Assembly: GCF_900111485.1 (NCBI RefSeq)
Contig: NZ_FOIC01000006.1
Location: 124,001-188,000 of the forward strand
Reading direction: 5' to 3'
Source: Natrinema hispanicum
GTDB lineage: Archaea; Halobacteriota; Halobacteria; Halobacteriales; Natrialbaceae
DNA: 64,000 bases
Shown here: positions 27,859 to 48,741 of the stretch, piece by piece
Position numbering within the stretch: position 1 is the stretch's first letter
Layout: each line of letters opens with the position of its first letter
Position numbers and translations under genes: made by a program
The notes under the pieces: generated by a model
Database searches by the model: none
What the model was told of the DNA's origin: nothing
The model's input: only the letters and a program-made list of their open reading frames with translations

Positions 27859-29439
27859 ATGACCGGAGACGACCCACTCGAGGAGTCCGAGTCAGGGGAA
27901 CCGCTGACTGACGGAGGGGCTGCAGGTGCCGACGACGTTGCGCTTGACCCCTGGGGGTCCTCGAGCGTCTCCGACTACCGCAAACTGTTCGAGGAGTTCG
28001 GGATCGAAGAGTTCGACGAGGTCTTAGAGCAGGTTCCAAACCCGCACTACCTGATGCGACGGGGCGTCATTTTCGGCCACCGGGACTATCGCCCGGTCGC
28101 CGAGGCGCTACAAAACGACGAGCCTGCGGCCGTCCTCTCGGGCTTTATGCCCACCGGCGACCCCCACATCGGCCACAAGCTGGTCTTCGACGAGATCATC
28201 TGGCATCAGCAACAGGGGGCCGACGCCTACGCCCTGATCGCCGACCTCGAAGCCAACTCCGCCCGCGGGATGAGTTGGGAGGAAATCGACGAACACGCAC
28301 GCGATTACCTGCTGTCCTTGCTCGCGCTCGGATTTGATCCAGAAGAGGGTGAACTCTACCGCCAATCGGAAAACCGCGAGCTGCAGGATCTGGCGTTCGA
28401 ACTCGGCGCGGAGGCCAACTTCTCGGAGCTCCAGGCGATCTACGGCTTCGACGGCGAAACCGACGTTTCGCACATGCAATCGGTCGTCACCCAGATGGCC
28501 GACATCCTCTACCCGCAACTCGAGGAGCCCAAACCCACGGTCATCCCTGTCGGCCCCGACCAGGACCCCCACGTCCGGCTGGCTCGCGACCTGGCCGAGC
28601 GGATGCGCTTTTTCAAGGTGAGCGAGGCCTACGCCAGCTTCGAACTCGAGCCTGACGAACGGGACCTGGTCGCCGACTTCTACGACCGACTCGAGCCCGC
28701 CGAGTTCGACGACGACACGCTCCGGTGTGTCCACGTCGCCGAAGCGGTAGAGGAGACGCCGCTGTCGGACCTTGAGGCCGACGCCGACACGCTGAGTTCG
28801 GTCCTGACGAAGCTGAACGAAGCCGGCATGGAGCCAATCCGGCCGCGAACCCGCTTTTCCGATCGGCGGGCGACCGACGAGGCGTTCGACGCACTCATTG
28901 AGGCCATCGAGGGCGAAAAGCGGGTCTACGAGAACCACGTCGACGCCTTCGAGATCGATCTCGCCGAGGCTGAAGAACTCGCCCGTCAGGTCGAAGTCGA
29001 CACCGGTGGCTACGGCTTCCAGCCGCCGTCGTCGATCTATCACCGATTCATGACCGGGCTGACCGGCGGTAAGATGTCCTCCTCGATCCCGGCGAGTCAC
29101 ATCTCGCTGCTCGATGACCCCGAGGACGGCTACAACAAGGTGAAGGCGGCGACGACCGGCGGCCGCGAGACCGCCGAAGAACAACGCGAGAAAGGCGGGA
29201 AAGCCGACGAGTGTCCCGTCTACGAACTCTACGCCTACCTGCTCTCCGGCGACGACGACGAATTCGCCAAGCGCGTCTACGACGAGTGTGTCGGCGGCGA
29301 GCGCCTCTGTGGTGACTGCAAGGAACAGGCGGCGCAGTTGATGCGGGAGTTCCTCGAGGAACACCAGGAGAAACGCGACGAAGTCGAGGAGTTGCTCGCG
29401 GACGTCGACATCGAACTCGAGTCGCCACGGCGTCGCTAG
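27859..29439 (+). CDS. trpS: Tryptophan--tRNA ligase, first copy
   Basis: A 526-residue class Ic synthetase. The HIGH motif is SGFMPTGDPHIGHK and the KMSKS motif is LTGGKMSSSIPAS. A long archaeal N-terminal extension precedes the Rossmann fold. The conserved VIPVGPDQDPHVRLARDL block that holds ATP and tryptophan is intact. It charges tRNA(Trp). A second full-length TrpS (46415-47635) lies in this window, so this organism has two. The gene follows the tubulin-like gene by 65 nt. Confidence 0.94.
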   Translation: MTGDDPLEESESGEPLTDGGAAGADDVALDPWGSSSVSDYRKLFEEFGIEEFDEVLEQVPNPHYLMRRGVIFGHRDYRPVAEALQNDEPAAVLSGFMPTGDPHIGHKLVFDEIIWHQQQGADAYALIADLEANSARGMSWEEIDEHARDYLLSLLALGFDPEEGELYRQSENRELQDLAFELGAEANFSELQAIYGFDGETDVSHMQSVVTQMADILYPQLEEPKPTVIPVGPDQDPHVRLARDLAERMRFFKVSEAYASFELEPDERDLVADFYDRLEPAEFDDDTLRCVHVAEAVEETPLSDLEADADTLSSVLTKLNEAGMEPIRPRTRFSDRRATDEAFDALIEAIEGEKRVYENHVDAFEIDLAEAEELARQVEVDTGGYGFQPPSSIYHRFMTGLTGGKMSSSIPASHISLLDDPEDGYNKVKAATTGGRETAEEQREKGGKADECPVYELYAYLLSGDDDEFAKRVYDECVGGERLCGDCKEQAAQLMREFLEEHQEKRDEVEELLADVDIELESPRRR

Positions 29440-30880: not shown

Positions 30881-31027
30881 ATGGCACTCGAATCCCGCGG
30901 CCGACGTGCGCGTGCCGGTGTCCTGTCGAGGAGACAGGGCTCGGAACGCAAACGGCGTGCGTGTTCCGGTGTCGGCGGGCAGCCACCGCGACTACAGACG
31001 GGATTCGACTTCTTCTTTGCCCGGTGA
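30881..31027 (+). CDS. Phe-rich leader ORF upstream of pheST
   Basis: A 48-codon ORF that ends with Phe42-Asp-Phe-Phe-Phe-Ala-Arg and stop, so four Phe codons fall within five codons just before the terminator. The rest is arginine-rich and low in similarity to known proteins. A 6-bp perfect hairpin (GCCCGG/CCGGGC, 31019-31034) straddles the stop codon. It precedes the phenylalanyl-tRNA synthetase genes by 134 nt. The layout resembles the pheM leader of enteric bacteria, where ribosome speed over Phe codons controls pheST. That it is translated or regulatory here is an inference; a chance ORF is possible. Confidence 0.5.
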   Translation: MALESRGRRARAGVLSRRQGSERKRRACSGVGGQPPRLQTGFDFFFAR

Positions 31028-31161: not shown

Positions 31162-32688
31162 ATGCAACTTCCAGCACAACAGGTCGCGGTCTTAGAGATC
31201 GCAAGTGCGGACGAGGCAACGTCCGTCGACGCCCTCGCCGCGGCGACCGAGCTCCCCCCCGAAACCGTCACCGGGGCCGTCTTCGAACTCGAGGACGAGG
31301 GACTGGTCGCCGTCAGCGAACGTGTCGACGAAACGATCGCGCTCACCGACGAGGGACGCGAGTACGCCGACGAGACACTCCCCGAGATTGCCCTCTACGA
31401 GGCCGCGCTCGAGGCGGGTGCCGACGACGAGCCAGTCTCGATGGGGCAGGTCATCGGTGCATCCGGGCTCGAGGGCGGTGCGGTCGACATCGCGCTCTCG
31501 AACTACGCGCGCAAGGGCTACGGCGTCATCGACAGTGGCGAGATCACGGCCGACGCCGACGCTGATCCGGCGGCCGACACAGAGGCGAACGCGCTCGCGG
31601 AACTCGCCGACGTCGACGATGCGCCAGTCGACAGCGTCGATATCGATGCGGACACGCTGGATCAACTCGAGCGGCGCGGCTTACTCGAGCGCCACGAGTC
31701 GACGGTTCGTGAGGTAACGCTGACCGAACTCGCCGTCACGGAGCTGATGGCGGGGATCGAGACCGCCGAGACGGTCGGCCAGGTCACTCCCGAACTGCTC
31801 ACCAGCGGCGAGTGGGAGGACGTCGAGTTCGCCGAGTACAACGTCGAAGCAGACGCCGAACGGTTCGAGGGCGGCAAGGTCCACATTCTGCGTCAGACTG
31901 CCGAACGCGTCAAGGATGTCCTCGTGGGGATGGGCTTCCAGGAGATGGAAGGCCCCCACGTCGACGCGGACTTCTGGATCAACGACTGCCTGTTCATGCC
32001 CCAAGACCACCCGGCGCGGACCCACTGGGACCGGTTCGCTCTGGAGCAGCCAACCCACATCGACGAACTTCCCGATGATCTCGTCGACCGCGTCGAGCGC
32101 GCCCACAAGGAAGGCGTCGGCCCGGACGGCGATGGCTATCACTCGCCGTGGGACGAGGACTTCGCGCGGGCGCTGGCCCTGCGTGGCCACACCACCTCGC
32201 TGTCGACCCGGTATCTCTCCGGCGAGGAGATCGGCGATCTCGAGCCGCCACAGCGCTACTTCAGCGTCGAGAAAGTGTATCGCAACGACACGCTCGATCC
32301 GACCCACCTCCTCGAGTTCTTCCAGATCGAGGGCTGGGTGATGGCCGAAGACCTCTCCGTGCGCGATCTGATGGGCACCTTCGAGGAGTTCTACTCCCAG
32401 TTCGGCATCACGGACATCCAGTTCAAGCCCCACTACAACCCCTACACGGAGCCCAGCTTCGAGCTGTTCGGCACCCACCCGACGACCGGCGAACTCGTCG
32501 AGATCGGCAACTCGGGTATCTTCCGCGAGGAGATGCTCGAGCCGCTGGGCGTCGAGTGTGACGTGATGGCGTGGGGACTGGCCCTCGAGCGACTGCTCAT
32601 GCTGATGTACGGCTTCGAAGACATCCGGGACATCCACGGAACGCTGTGTGACCTGGAACTGCTGCGCGAGACGGAGGTGACCTACTGA
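31162..32688 (+). CDS. pheS: Phenylalanine--tRNA ligase alpha subunit
   Basis: A 508-residue archaeal/eukaryotic-type PheS. N-terminal winged-helix-like domains (about residues 1-170) precede the class II catalytic core. The core includes FWINDCLFMPQDHPARTHWD (motif 1 region), RYLSGEEIGDLEPPQRYFSV and EIGNSGIFREEMLEPLGVE (motif 3 region). With PheT it forms the (alpha-beta)2 enzyme that charges tRNA(Phe). Its stop overlaps the pheT start (TGATG at 32686-32690), indicating translational coupling. Confidence 0.96.
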   Translation: MQLPAQQVAVLEIASADEATSVDALAAATELPPETVTGAVFELEDEGLVAVSERVDETIALTDEGREYADETLPEIALYEAALEAGADDEPVSMGQVIGASGLEGGAVDIALSNYARKGYGVIDSGEITADADADPAADTEANALAELADVDDAPVDSVDIDADTLDQLERRGLLERHESTVREVTLTELAVTELMAGIETAETVGQVTPELLTSGEWEDVEFAEYNVEADAERFEGGKVHILRQTAERVKDVLVGMGFQEMEGPHVDADFWINDCLFMPQDHPARTHWDRFALEQPTHIDELPDDLVDRVERAHKEGVGPDGDGYHSPWDEDFARALALRGHTTSLSTRYLSGEEIGDLEPPQRYFSVEKVYRNDTLDPTHLLEFFQIEGWVMAEDLSVRDLMGTFEEFYSQFGITDIQFKPHYNPYTEPSFELFGTHPTTGELVEIGNSGIFREEMLEPLGVECDVMAWGLALERLLMLMYGFEDIRDIHGTLCDLELLRETEVTY

Positions 32689-46414: not shown

Positions 46415-47635
46415 CTACTCGAGTGCCGATGGGACGCCGGCTCGCTCGAGTGCTTGCTGTCGTTCCGCGTCGGTGAGTCGATACGGCTGGATTTCAGTCG
46501 CCAGCTCACCCAGTGCAGCGCGCCGGCGCTGGTGTGCCGCGAGAAACGTGGTGATTCGATCGATCGCGATTTCTTTTAGTTCACCACTGAGCAGGTCGCC
46601 AGACCGATAGTCGGCCGCAATGCGCTCGAGTTCGGCATCGTCGGGTTCGAAGAAAAAGCGGAGATACTGAAAGAGAACGTCGACGGACGGATCACCACCC
46701 TTCTCGCGATGTTCCTCGAGGGTTGCTCGGCCGCCGGTGTAGGCATGTGTTCGAATCGTCTCGGCGACCGTTTCCGGGGCAGCAGTGAGATCGATCGAGG
46801 GGGCATCGGCGGACGAACTCATCTTTCCCGGTCCCTCGAGACTCGGAAGGAATCGGCCGAGGAGGGCACCGGGTTTCTCCACGGGGAGTGCCTCCTTCGC
46901 AGCAATGTCGCGACAGACGCGAACGTGCGGATCTTGATCGACGGCGATGGGGACGAGCGTCGGCTGCCGACCGCCGACGAGTTGCGGAAGCAGGAGGTGT
47001 GTCGCCTGGACGGCGGGATAGAACTGGAGACCGACGGTGTCTTGCTCGCCGTAGACGGCCTCGACGGTGGCCGGCGTGAGATGCGTTGCGAGTCGCACAG
47101 CGAGGGGGTAGATCACGTCTGCATCGACGGTATCGATGATGAGTCTCGTCTTGTCGGAATCGAAGCCAACGGCGAGAACATCGCGGAGATTCTCGCGGGT
47201 ATGCTGTCCGATTTCCGCGAAGGACTGTGCTTTCGCGAGGAACTTTTCGTCGTCGGAAAGCGGGATGTAGACCGTTGCTCCCGTCTCCTGCTGAAGCCGC
47301 TTGGCGAGATACAGCGGGAGAACGTGACCGAGATGCATCGGTCCCGACGGCCCTCGTCCGGTGACGATCGCGTGCGGCGCATCGGCTTCGGCAGCCTCGA
47401 GGTACTCATCGATGTCTCGGCCCGCATAGAACGTTCGACGACGGAGCAGCGGGTGCTCGGGAAAGCGAGCGAGCTGGTCGTCGGTGAGCCGATCGGCCCC
47501 GAACCGGTCGATGAGCTTCTCGTAGTCGATCTCGCCGTCGACGGCATACGGGGTAACGGTGAAGTCGTCAGTGGCAGTGGCGGTACGTGTCTCAGTCGCG
47601 TCGATATCGGTTTCGGTGTGATCAGTGGGTGACAT
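46415..47635 (-). CDS. trpS: Tryptophan--tRNA ligase, second copy
   Basis: A 406-residue TrpS from ATG 47635 (ATG 47641 adds two residues). The HIGH motif is RGPSGPMHLGHVLPLYLAK and the KMSKS motif is GPGKMSSSADAPSID. VPIAVDQDPHVRVCRDIAAK forms the tryptophan pocket block. It is closer to typical archaeal TrpS in the HIGH region than the first copy, which has a GDP insertion. It lies between rio1 and the KH gene on the same strand and is preceded by a Trp-rich leader ORF with alternative RNA structures. This copy may therefore be the regulated one. Confidence 0.95.
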   Translation of the reverse strand: MSPTDHTETDIDATETRTATATDDFTVTPYAVDGEIDYEKLIDRFGADRLTDDQLARFPEHPLLRRRTFYAGRDIDEYLEAAEADAPHAIVTGRGPSGPMHLGHVLPLYLAKRLQQETGATVYIPLSDDEKFLAKAQSFAEIGQHTRENLRDVLAVGFDSDKTRLIIDTVDADVIYPLAVRLATHLTPATVEAVYGEQDTVGLQFYPAVQATHLLLPQLVGGRQPTLVPIAVDQDPHVRVCRDIAAKEALPVEKPGALLGRFLPSLEGPGKMSSSADAPSIDLTAAPETVAETIRTHAYTGGRATLEEHREKGGDPSVDVLFQYLRFFFEPDDAELERIAADYRSGDLLSGELKEIAIDRITTFLAAHQRRRAALGELATEIQPYRLTDAERQQALERAGVPSALE

Positions 47636-47660
47636 TCGCATTGGGTCGGCGACGGCAACA

Positions 47661-47800
47661 GCTGGCAGTCGGTTCCAGCAAAAACGAGCGGAGGGAGCGA
47701 TCGCCGCCGCAGCCGCCGGGTTAGGCCGCGTCGCCCGCCGCGACGACACTGTCCGCTCTCGAGGGCGCGTGCCATCGCCACTGCCAGCCGAGAGCGGACA
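47661..47800 (-). promoter_or_regulatory. Candidate Trp-responsive leader RNA
   Basis: Three competing pairings are visible. Pairing A is 12 bp perfect between 47789-47800 (leader start) and 47750-47761. Pairing B is 9 bp perfect between the TGG CAG TGG region (47780-47788) and 47661-47669, just before the trpS start. Pairing C is 7 bp between 47752-47758 and 47686-47692 and is followed by a T5 run (47680-47684). A and C share one arm. A ribosome on the Trp codons would block A and B. Confidence 0.6.
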
Positions 47801-47801
47801 T
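47721..47801 (-). CDS. Trp-rich leader peptide ORF upstream of trpS
   Basis: A 26-codon ORF reading M-S-A-L-G-W-Q-W-R-W-H-A-P-S and then S/V/A-rich residues to a TAA stop. Three Trp codons in five positions is remarkable in a proteome where Trp is rare. Its ATG at 47801 lies about 28 nt after a TATA element, consistent with a leaderless transcript. It ends 85 nt before trpS. By analogy with bacterial trp leaders, ribosome progress over the Trp codons would sense charged tRNA(Trp). Translation and function are inferred. Confidence 0.65.
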   Translation of the reverse strand: MSALGWQWRWHAPSRADSVVAAGDAA

Positions 47802-47825
47802 CAGTATGACTACATTTCGGACCGA

Positions 47826-47833
47826 CAATAAAG
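47826..47833 (-). promoter_or_regulatory. TATA element for the Trp leader/trpS transcript
   Basis: CTTTATTG on the minus strand, with CGAAATC upstream as a possible BRE. The centre is about 28 nt before the leader ATG at 47801, so the transcript would begin at or within a few nucleotides of the leader ORF. Confidence 0.5.
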
Positions 47834-47865
47834 AGGATTTCGGACCTAACTGACAGGCGTCCGTC

Positions 47866-48741
47866 TCAGTCTCGAGACGGGTCCGGCTCCGGACTCGTGA
47901 CGAACGCGAGCAACTCGTCGGCGGTCACGTCGAGTCCCTGCCGGGAGAAAAACGAGGCGACGTTCCGACAGTCACGCTCTAAGAAGTCACGGCTGTTGGG
48001 GTGGTGGACGGTGACGGCCTGCCCGAGGTCGATGAGCACGAGTTGGCCCTCAGCCTCGTCGAAGACGACGTTGTATTCGCTCAAGTCGCCGTGGATCAGC
48101 CCGGCCGAGTAGAGCCGGCGCATGTACTCGCGCATGACCTCGTAGGCGGTTTGTGGGTTCTCGATGTGGACCTCGCCGAGGCGTTTCGCGCGGCCGTCCT
48201 CGGTGCCGATGTACTCCATGACCAACACGTTGCGCTCGGTGGCGATCGGCTCCGGCACGCGGACGCCGGCCGCTTTCGCCCGCTGTAAGTTCGCCAGTTC
48301 CTTTTTTGTCCACGCGAGGACGACGTCTTTCTTCTGGCCGCCCAGCCCCTCGAAACGCGGGTCGCCCTCGAGGTAGTCGCGCATCTGCCGGAAGTTCGAG
48401 GCGTTGATCCGGTAGATCTTGACCGCGACCTCGCGGTCATCGCCCAGCGCGTGGTAGACGTTTGCCTCCTTGCCTGTCGAGAGCGGGCCGCCGAAAGCCT
48501 CGACGTAGCCGTCCTGGACGAGCTTATACAGCGCCGCGAACGTCGCGTCGTCGAACACCGACTGTTCGACTTTGAACTGGTCGGCGTCCTTGATTCGCTC
48601 CTGGAACTGGTTGAACTCGCGATCGCGCTTGCGGGCGATCCGATCTGCTTCCGTATCCGAGACATCGATCTCTTCCCACTCGTCGCCTGGGGTCTCGGCT
48701 TCATCTACGTCGACCAGTCCGAACTCCGTTCCCTGTCCCAT
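47866..48741 (-). CDS. rio1: RIO1-family serine/threonine kinase
   Basis: A 291-residue RIO kinase. The nucleotide loop is GPLSTGKEANVYHAL, the invariant lysine is in EVAVKIYRI, the catalytic loop is LIHGDLSEYNVVF, and the metal-binding loop is LVLIDLGQAV. RIO1 acts in final maturation of the small ribosomal subunit. The acidic N-terminal extension (about 60 residues) is typical of haloarchaeal members. The usual archaeal partner, the KH protein, is two genes downstream because trpS intervenes. Confidence 0.95.
   Translation of the reverse strand: MGQGTEFGLVDVDEAETPGDEWEEIDVSDTEADRIARKRDREFNQFQERIKDADQFKVEQSVFDDATFAALYKLVQDGYVEAFGGPLSTGKEANVYHALGDDREVAVKIYRINASNFRQMRDYLEGDPRFEGLGGQKKDVVLAWTKKELANLQRAKAAGVRVPEPIATERNVLVMEYIGTEDGRAKRLGEVHIENPQTAYEVMREYMRRLYSAGLIHGDLSEYNVVFDEAEGQLVLIDLGQAVTVHHPNSRDFLERDCRNVASFFSRQGLDVTADELLAFVTSPEPDPSRD

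Follow-up and report, generated by a model that had tools for sequence, protein, structure and literature searches.

Ribosome-mediated attenuation is a textbook mechanism in bacteria. In Escherichia coli trpL, stalling at tandem Trp codons frees an RNA segment and changes the pairing downstream, and in the same organism pheM is the leader of pheST. Vecchione and Sello reportedly described a leader-peptide attenuator for trpRS1 of Streptomyces coelicolor. A leader-peptide attenuator has also been predicted upstream of trpS2 in Streptomyces avermitilis, and actinobacterial ilvB genes possess leader peptides with terminators (PMC1262725). The auxiliary TrpRS of Streptomyces serves indolmycin resistance (PMC6804068). 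For Archaea, Blombach et al. stated in 2021 that no example of attenuation or antitermination was known (PMC8448881), and we found no archaeal attenuation case reported since then in the openly licensed literature. An earlier examination of the locus described here, made from its letters alone (the sequence-only reading), had likewise cited no described haloarchaeal case.

The locus lies on the minus strand of a 64,000-nucleotide stretch of Natrinema hispanicum DNA (the window), upstream of trpS2. Its leader shares with the Streptomyces synthetase attenuators the presence of Trp codons in a short open reading frame (ORF), candidate alternative hairpins, and an auxiliary TrpRS as the target. 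However, the Streptomyces elements use bacterial intrinsic terminators and a classical antiterminator, whereas the haloarchaeal leader belongs to an archaeon, has the promoter spacing of a leaderless mRNA, encloses its Trp codons within a hairpin (P1), and in most species carries a CU tract instead of poly-U; no sequence relation between the two is claimed. The likeness to E. coli trpL is that a stall at Trp codons, which is proposed for the haloarchaea, would free a segment that alters downstream pairing. In contrast to trpL, the target is a synthetase and not biosynthesis, no conserved 2:3 antiterminator was found, and RNA polymerase and termination are archaeal. Sequence comparison suggests that the haloarchaeal Trp leader works like bacterial leader-peptide attenuation, in a domain where this kind of control is unreported. 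If this is true, transcription and translation in archaea would be so tightly coupled that a ribosome can govern RNA polymerase, and the logic of attenuation would have arisen or persisted outside the bacteria. The Trp leader would also give haloarchaeal genetics a ready-made expression part that responds to an amino acid.

The leader ORF and its Trp codons

The trpS2 gene encodes an auxiliary tryptophan--tRNA ligase (46415 to 47641, minus strand, with a start at 47641 or 47635; NF008927, 572 bits; TIGR00233, 208 bits), and its upstream neighbor is the rio1 kinase gene (47866 to 48741, minus strand; NF041310). The leader ORF (47721 to 47801, minus strand) consists of 26 codons and a stop codon (MSALGWQWRWHAPSRADSVVAAGDAA). 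The sequence-only reading had pointed to this ORF for its W-x-W-x-W order; it is present as described, and such ORFs recur in dozens of genera. The array TGG-CAG-TGG-CGA-TGG (47772 to 47786, minus strand) lies in the P1 loop, with its TGG codons at 47786-47784, 47780-47778, and 47774-47772, and the TAA stop codon (47721 to 47723, minus strand) lies within the loop of a second hairpin, P2. The end of the ORF is 79 nt from the in-frame ATG at 47641 and 85 nt from the ATG at 47635; a distance of 85 nt had been reported, which is correct for the latter start. The leader ORF is short, and its codons include those for the amino acid that the downstream TrpRS handles.

A putative leader promoter (47827 to 47843, minus strand) is composed of a BRE-like CCGAAAT box followed by the TATA element CTTTATT (47833-47827), the center of which is about 28 nt 5' of the leader ATG. 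The TATA element had been noted before at this distance, and the spacing recurs in relatives beyond chance: in nearly all of the 65 listed relatives, an A/T-rich TATA-like box, usually after a CGAAA-like BRE, stands at a near-constant distance from the leader start. Because this distance is near constant, the leader mRNA is probably leaderless. The long primary tryptophan--tRNA ligase gene of the same genome, trpS1 (27859 to 29439, plus strand; NF008928, 1053 bits), has no W-rich ORF upstream, and the genome as a whole yielded only one confident match to R1, a covariance model built from the leader RNA. When the window was searched with Rfam covariance models, there were no matches at the gathering score to the T-box, a Trp riboswitch, or any other family, and no tRNA genes were found in the window.

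A scan of public genomes returned 78 loci, nearly all of them haloarchaeal trpS2 relatives, and 77 were examined for leaders. A W-x-W-type leader ORF was present 5' of 68 of these 77 trpS2-type loci, and five further loci (L036, L043, L046, L051, and L082) had a single-Trp leader ending in RWR or LWR before the stop codon, on the same RNA scaffold. Among the remaining trpS2-type loci, L032 was cut off and L049 was apparently degenerate; a leader was not found at L076 or at L080 (the only non-haloarchaeal archaeon among the 77 loci). Single-Trp leaders of the RWR/LWR type occur at the trpS2 copies of the same five loci and of L139, some of which are plasmid borne. L082 and L139 carry about 90 additional bases within P2, possibly an insertion.

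The reading frame of the leader is maintained. Between the start codon and the P1 3' arm, 130 of 137 TGGs are in the frame set by the closest start codon, and the distance from the start to the last TGG is mostly 21, 24, 27, 30, 33, 36, or 39 nt, seven lengths that are all multiples of 3. Two loci, L038 and L052, were scored as out of frame when an earlier upstream ATG was taken; an in-frame start is present in both. Leaders contain 1 to 4 Trp codons, the codons between them vary (R, H, Q, C, and P), and the site of the leader stop differs by lineage, falling in the P1 loop, the P2 5' arm, or the P2 loop. Frame maintenance and the length steps of three suggest that the Trp codons are read by the ribosome.

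Hairpins P1 and P2 and the approach to trpS

P1 is formed on the minus strand by segment 1 (47789 to 47800), which overlaps leader codons 1 to 5, and segment 2 (47750 to 47761). The sequence-only reading had reported this 12-bp inverted repeat (47800-47789 with 47761-47750), which is perfect in the window and is confirmed by compensatory changes. P2, a second conserved hairpin that had not been listed, has its 5' arm directly 3' of P1 (47740 to 47750, minus strand), with A47750 as the boundary base, and its 3' arm, ending in an invariant GCT, at 47696 to 47707 (minus strand). The window RNA folded alone formed both P1 and P2 (z = -2.4).

The structure tests used a 66-sequence alignment of leader loci; a trimmed alignment, A2, was left out, since the GCTC motif is misaligned there. 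RNAalifold recovered P2 from the 66 sequences, and pair counts showed that 91.7% of P1 and P2 cells were paired. Double changes were found in 141 cells, versus 49.5 ± 9.0 in shuffles and no more than 26 when the arms were slid. In the arm-swap test, own arms versus swapped arms gave -19.8 versus -15.1 kcal/mol for P1 and -9.35 versus -7.70 kcal/mol for P2, with 0 of 5,000 permutations as good in either case, although shuffle-based P values overstate independence because the sequences are related. The Natrialba-type arms TCCGCTCTC/GAGAGCGGA are replaced by TCCACTTCC/GGAAGTGGA in Haloferax-type sequences. At the 3' end of P2, GCTC is invariant in the 66 aligned sequences. The P1 3' arm is conserved as RNA and not as peptide: a different frame is used in Halorussus (GERTVS before the stop codon), and in early-stop leaders (the L036 group, L060, and L155) it is untranslated and still kept as RNA. 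P1 is a conserved RNA hairpin with an arm that is coded by the leader beside the sensor codons.

A CU-rich tract follows P2 (47680 to 47695, minus strand) and ends in T5 (47684-47680). Across 61 loci, T makes up 36% and pyrimidines 82% of the first 15 nt 3' of P2, but just 12 of these loci have a run of T4 or longer. The region before the trpS start is A/C rich and poor in G and T, lies outside P1 and P2, and looks unstructured and not sequestered. This openness favors control upstream of the start codon, with transcriptional attenuation as the most likely form.

Two further stems had been proposed in the sequence-only reading, which called for a comparison of TGG clusters and of compensation in all three stems; the TGG clusters and P1 proved to be conserved, and the other two stems did not. 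The 9-bp pairing of the Trp-codon segment with sequence before the trpS start (47788-47780 with 47669-47661) is perfect in the window. However, it is confined to the closest relatives, and own and swapped regions paired equally well (P = 0.56), and it was rejected as the switch. The third pairing, which precedes T5, is also present but lacks covariation (P = 0.71); it was rejected as a terminator hairpin, and the only role in which we retained it is that of possibly extending P2.

Such an extension would pair segment 2 with the CU tract. Its pairing energy, -11.8 kcal/mol, was modestly better than the -10.9 and -10.8 kcal/mol of shuffled sequences (Wilcoxon P values of about 2e-4 and 3e-5, which ignore relatedness). 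The arm-swap test gave no covariation for the pairing of segment 2 with the tract (P = 0.71), and shuffling the tract alone showed no excess pairing. Among the best folds of the 66 sequences, 52 contained P1 and 8 contained the P2 extension instead of P1. The conserved 2:3 helix of the classical 1:2/2:3/3:4 trp attenuator was absent from both the consensus fold and the best fold of the window. The candidate alternative partner of segment 2 is the tract beyond P2.

Proposed mechanism and competing explanations

We propose that the leader is probably a ribosome-operated attenuator that ties TrpRS expression to the level of charged tRNA-Trp. Stalling at the Trp codons is very likely the signal, and there is a reasonable case for an output that is transcriptional rather than translational; for the specific switch between P1 and the P2 extension, we rate the chances as even. 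When Trp-tRNA is plentiful, the ribosome would pass the Trp codons, and P1 and P2 would form. The CU/U tract would then be exposed, and RNA polymerase would terminate before trpS, with or without aCPSF1/FttA. When Trp-tRNA is scarce, the ribosome would stall at the first Trp codon, mask the P1 5' arm, and leave the 3' arm free, given the usual size of a ribosome footprint. Segment 2 and the CU tract flank P2 immediately on its 5' and 3' sides, so that the two can pair with each other across the base of that hairpin. The freed 3' arm would do so, extending P2 and hiding the tract, and transcription would read through into trpS. A tract that is free with P1 and can become hidden once P1 is prevented from forming fits termination with Trp and read-through without it. 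The sequence-only reading had also proposed a stalled ribosome. The comparison gives strong support to the part in which a Trp leader lets trpS sense charged tRNA-Trp, but not to the part in which stalling opens a stem at the trpS start.

Several features speak against an attenuator: the position of the leader stop codon is not fixed relative to P2, the short T runs make the termination signal not obvious in most species, and the pairing of segment 2 with the tract lacks covariation. With T4 or longer at so few loci, termination may be factor assisted, or control may be translational. In Haloferax volcanii, stretches of T act as termination sites, and a hairpin tested at one site terminated transcription with an efficiency of 59% (PMC7237163). 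U4 tracts are bound by archaeal aCPSF1 (PMC8716108). Translational control would mean that the leader and hairpins set ribosome loading or re-initiation at trpS on a complete mRNA, with no termination. The shortness of the T runs 3' of P2 would suit it, as would a leader stop no more than about 100 nt away from the start of trpS and the existence in H. volcanii of long 5' untranslated region (5'UTR) transcripts with upstream ORFs (uORFs), as tabulated in PMC4983044. Yet the A/C-rich approach to trpS outside P1 and P2 looks permanently open, the sole pairing that would cover the trpS start is unconserved, and most haloarchaeal transcripts are leaderless, the share given for H. volcanii coding transcripts in that survey being 72% (PMC4983044). 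We therefore regard translational control as unlikely, although it deserves attention.

A broader switch responding to translation stress or antibiotics, in which output rises whenever the leader ribosome is blocked and TrpRS2 is auxiliary and perhaps inhibitor resistant, as in Streptomyces, appears to us improbable. An auxiliary indolmycin-resistant TrpRS is indeed known in Streptomyces (PMC6804068), and the scaffold, free of a Trp array, precedes GNAT genes (L118, L130, L135, and L136) and an ABC exporter gene (L133). These five are the only non-TrpRS examples found, however, and the Trp codons are strongly kept before both types of TrpRS. It is much less probable that CTGGCGCTGG is an RNA motif forming a protein, tRNA, or metabolite site in an RNA-only element with an incidental ORF. 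Although TGGCGCTGG is the commonest loop sequence, the frame is kept, whole W codons are inserted, the middle codons vary, and the start lies at promoter distance. Moreover, in Halomarina the first Trp codon itself is part of the P1 5' arm, yet it is retained. That the leader encodes a functional microprotein is hardly credible, since the recurring amino acid pattern SRADS/GADS/EVDS follows from the P1 3' arm and is lost in the peptide, but not in the RNA, in Halorussus and the early-stop groups.

Distribution and sister leaders before pheS and ilvB

R1 was searched in 292 Halobacteria genomes and matched in 114 of them, representing 42 of 77 genera. It was present in 95 of the 98 genomes with trpS2; at the trpS2 genes of the other three (G278, L147; G223, L148; G274, L149), no leader was detectable. 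These three trpS2 genes are possible natural constitutive cases. A further 19 genomes were R1 positive without trpS2. In the 17 of these that were examined, the leader preceded a long TrpRS gene in 15 and a GNAT acetyltransferase gene in 2. The long TrpRS gene and trpS2 are about 32% identical. The sequence-only reading had assigned the leader to the "second trpS," which is right in this genome; in other genera, it precedes the long primary TrpRS gene.

The leaders on the P1/P2/GCTC scaffold before the four GNAT genes and the ABC exporter gene contain 0 or 1 Trp codon; it is thus the TrpRS gene, and not the RNA scaffold, that the Trp array accompanies. Since GNAT homologues occur in as many as 168 of the 292 Halobacteria genomes, GNAT leaders are occasional and not general. 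One R1 match, G213:C1:2036035 (L137, E = 0.0055), lies in continuous coding sequence and was taken as chance; R2 matches above about 1e-3 (L140 to L146) and L150 (E = 4.9e-4) also look like chance. TrpRS2 was absent from the phage collection searched.

Two further amino acid genes have leaders of a comparable kind. In the window, a Phe-rich leader ORF (30881 to 31027, plus strand) ends in QTGFDFFFAR and lies upstream of pheS (31162 to 32688, plus strand; TIGR00468 in its own genome at the corresponding position); an inverted repeat, GCCCGG/CCGGGC, contains the stop codon of the leader. Phe-rich leaders of the GFGFFF type precede pheS in about 24 of 30 haloarchaeal loci (L219 to L245), this window included, and the pheS leader is a probable Phe attenuator. 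Upstream of ilvB, an Ile/Val-containing leader ending in IVGAx before the stop codon was found in 29 of 30 loci (L158 to L187). It has an invariant GTAGGGGC..TAGCCCC hairpin, whose loop contains the stop codon, and then a CU-rich tract, and is probably a branched-chain amino acid attenuator. In the genome studied here, the ilvB leader (L169) is upstream of G000:C54:24304. The ilvB leader at L138 (559 to 720; MRRTAGTTAINAASGIAFLGIIVGA before the stop codon) also matches the Trp-leader model, via a P1-like stem. The haloarchaeal ilvB and pheS leaders are most closely paralleled by the actinobacterial ilvB leaders and E. coli pheM, which belong to a different domain of life; in addition, the haloarchaeal ilvB stop codon lies within the invariant GGGGC/GCCCC hairpin.

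Taken with the Trp leader, these cases incline us, with some reserve, toward a general haloarchaeal system of ribosome-mediated transcription attenuation, which would be the first in Archaea. Sensor codons would be exchanged per gene (Trp for TrpRS, Phe for PheRS, Ile/Val for acetolactate synthase, and others before GNAT and the ABC exporter), with the Trp, GNAT, and ABC cases on one P1/P2 scaffold. A class-wide Trp leader supported by covariation, together with its Phe and Ile/Val sisters, makes the question of archaeal attenuation testable in H. volcanii. Differential RNA sequencing (dRNA-seq) of that organism identified 16 uORFs in long 5'UTRs (Babski et al., 2016; PMC4983044, Table 2), including one of 23 amino acids (aa) before the tryptophan--tRNA ligase gene HVO_A0127 and one of 26 aa before pheS. 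The table presents them as small proteins, and amino acid sensing, structure, and conservation do not figure in that part of the paper. Haloferax-type Trp leaders in our analysis are 22 to 23 aa long (2.5 to 2.8 kDa). Going by the tabulated entries, the HVO_A0127 and pheS uORFs are very probably the same elements as the Trp and Phe leaders. The same table (row 11) lists a 23-aa uORF before the SNF-family transporter gene HVO_A0165, which could be another amino acid leader.
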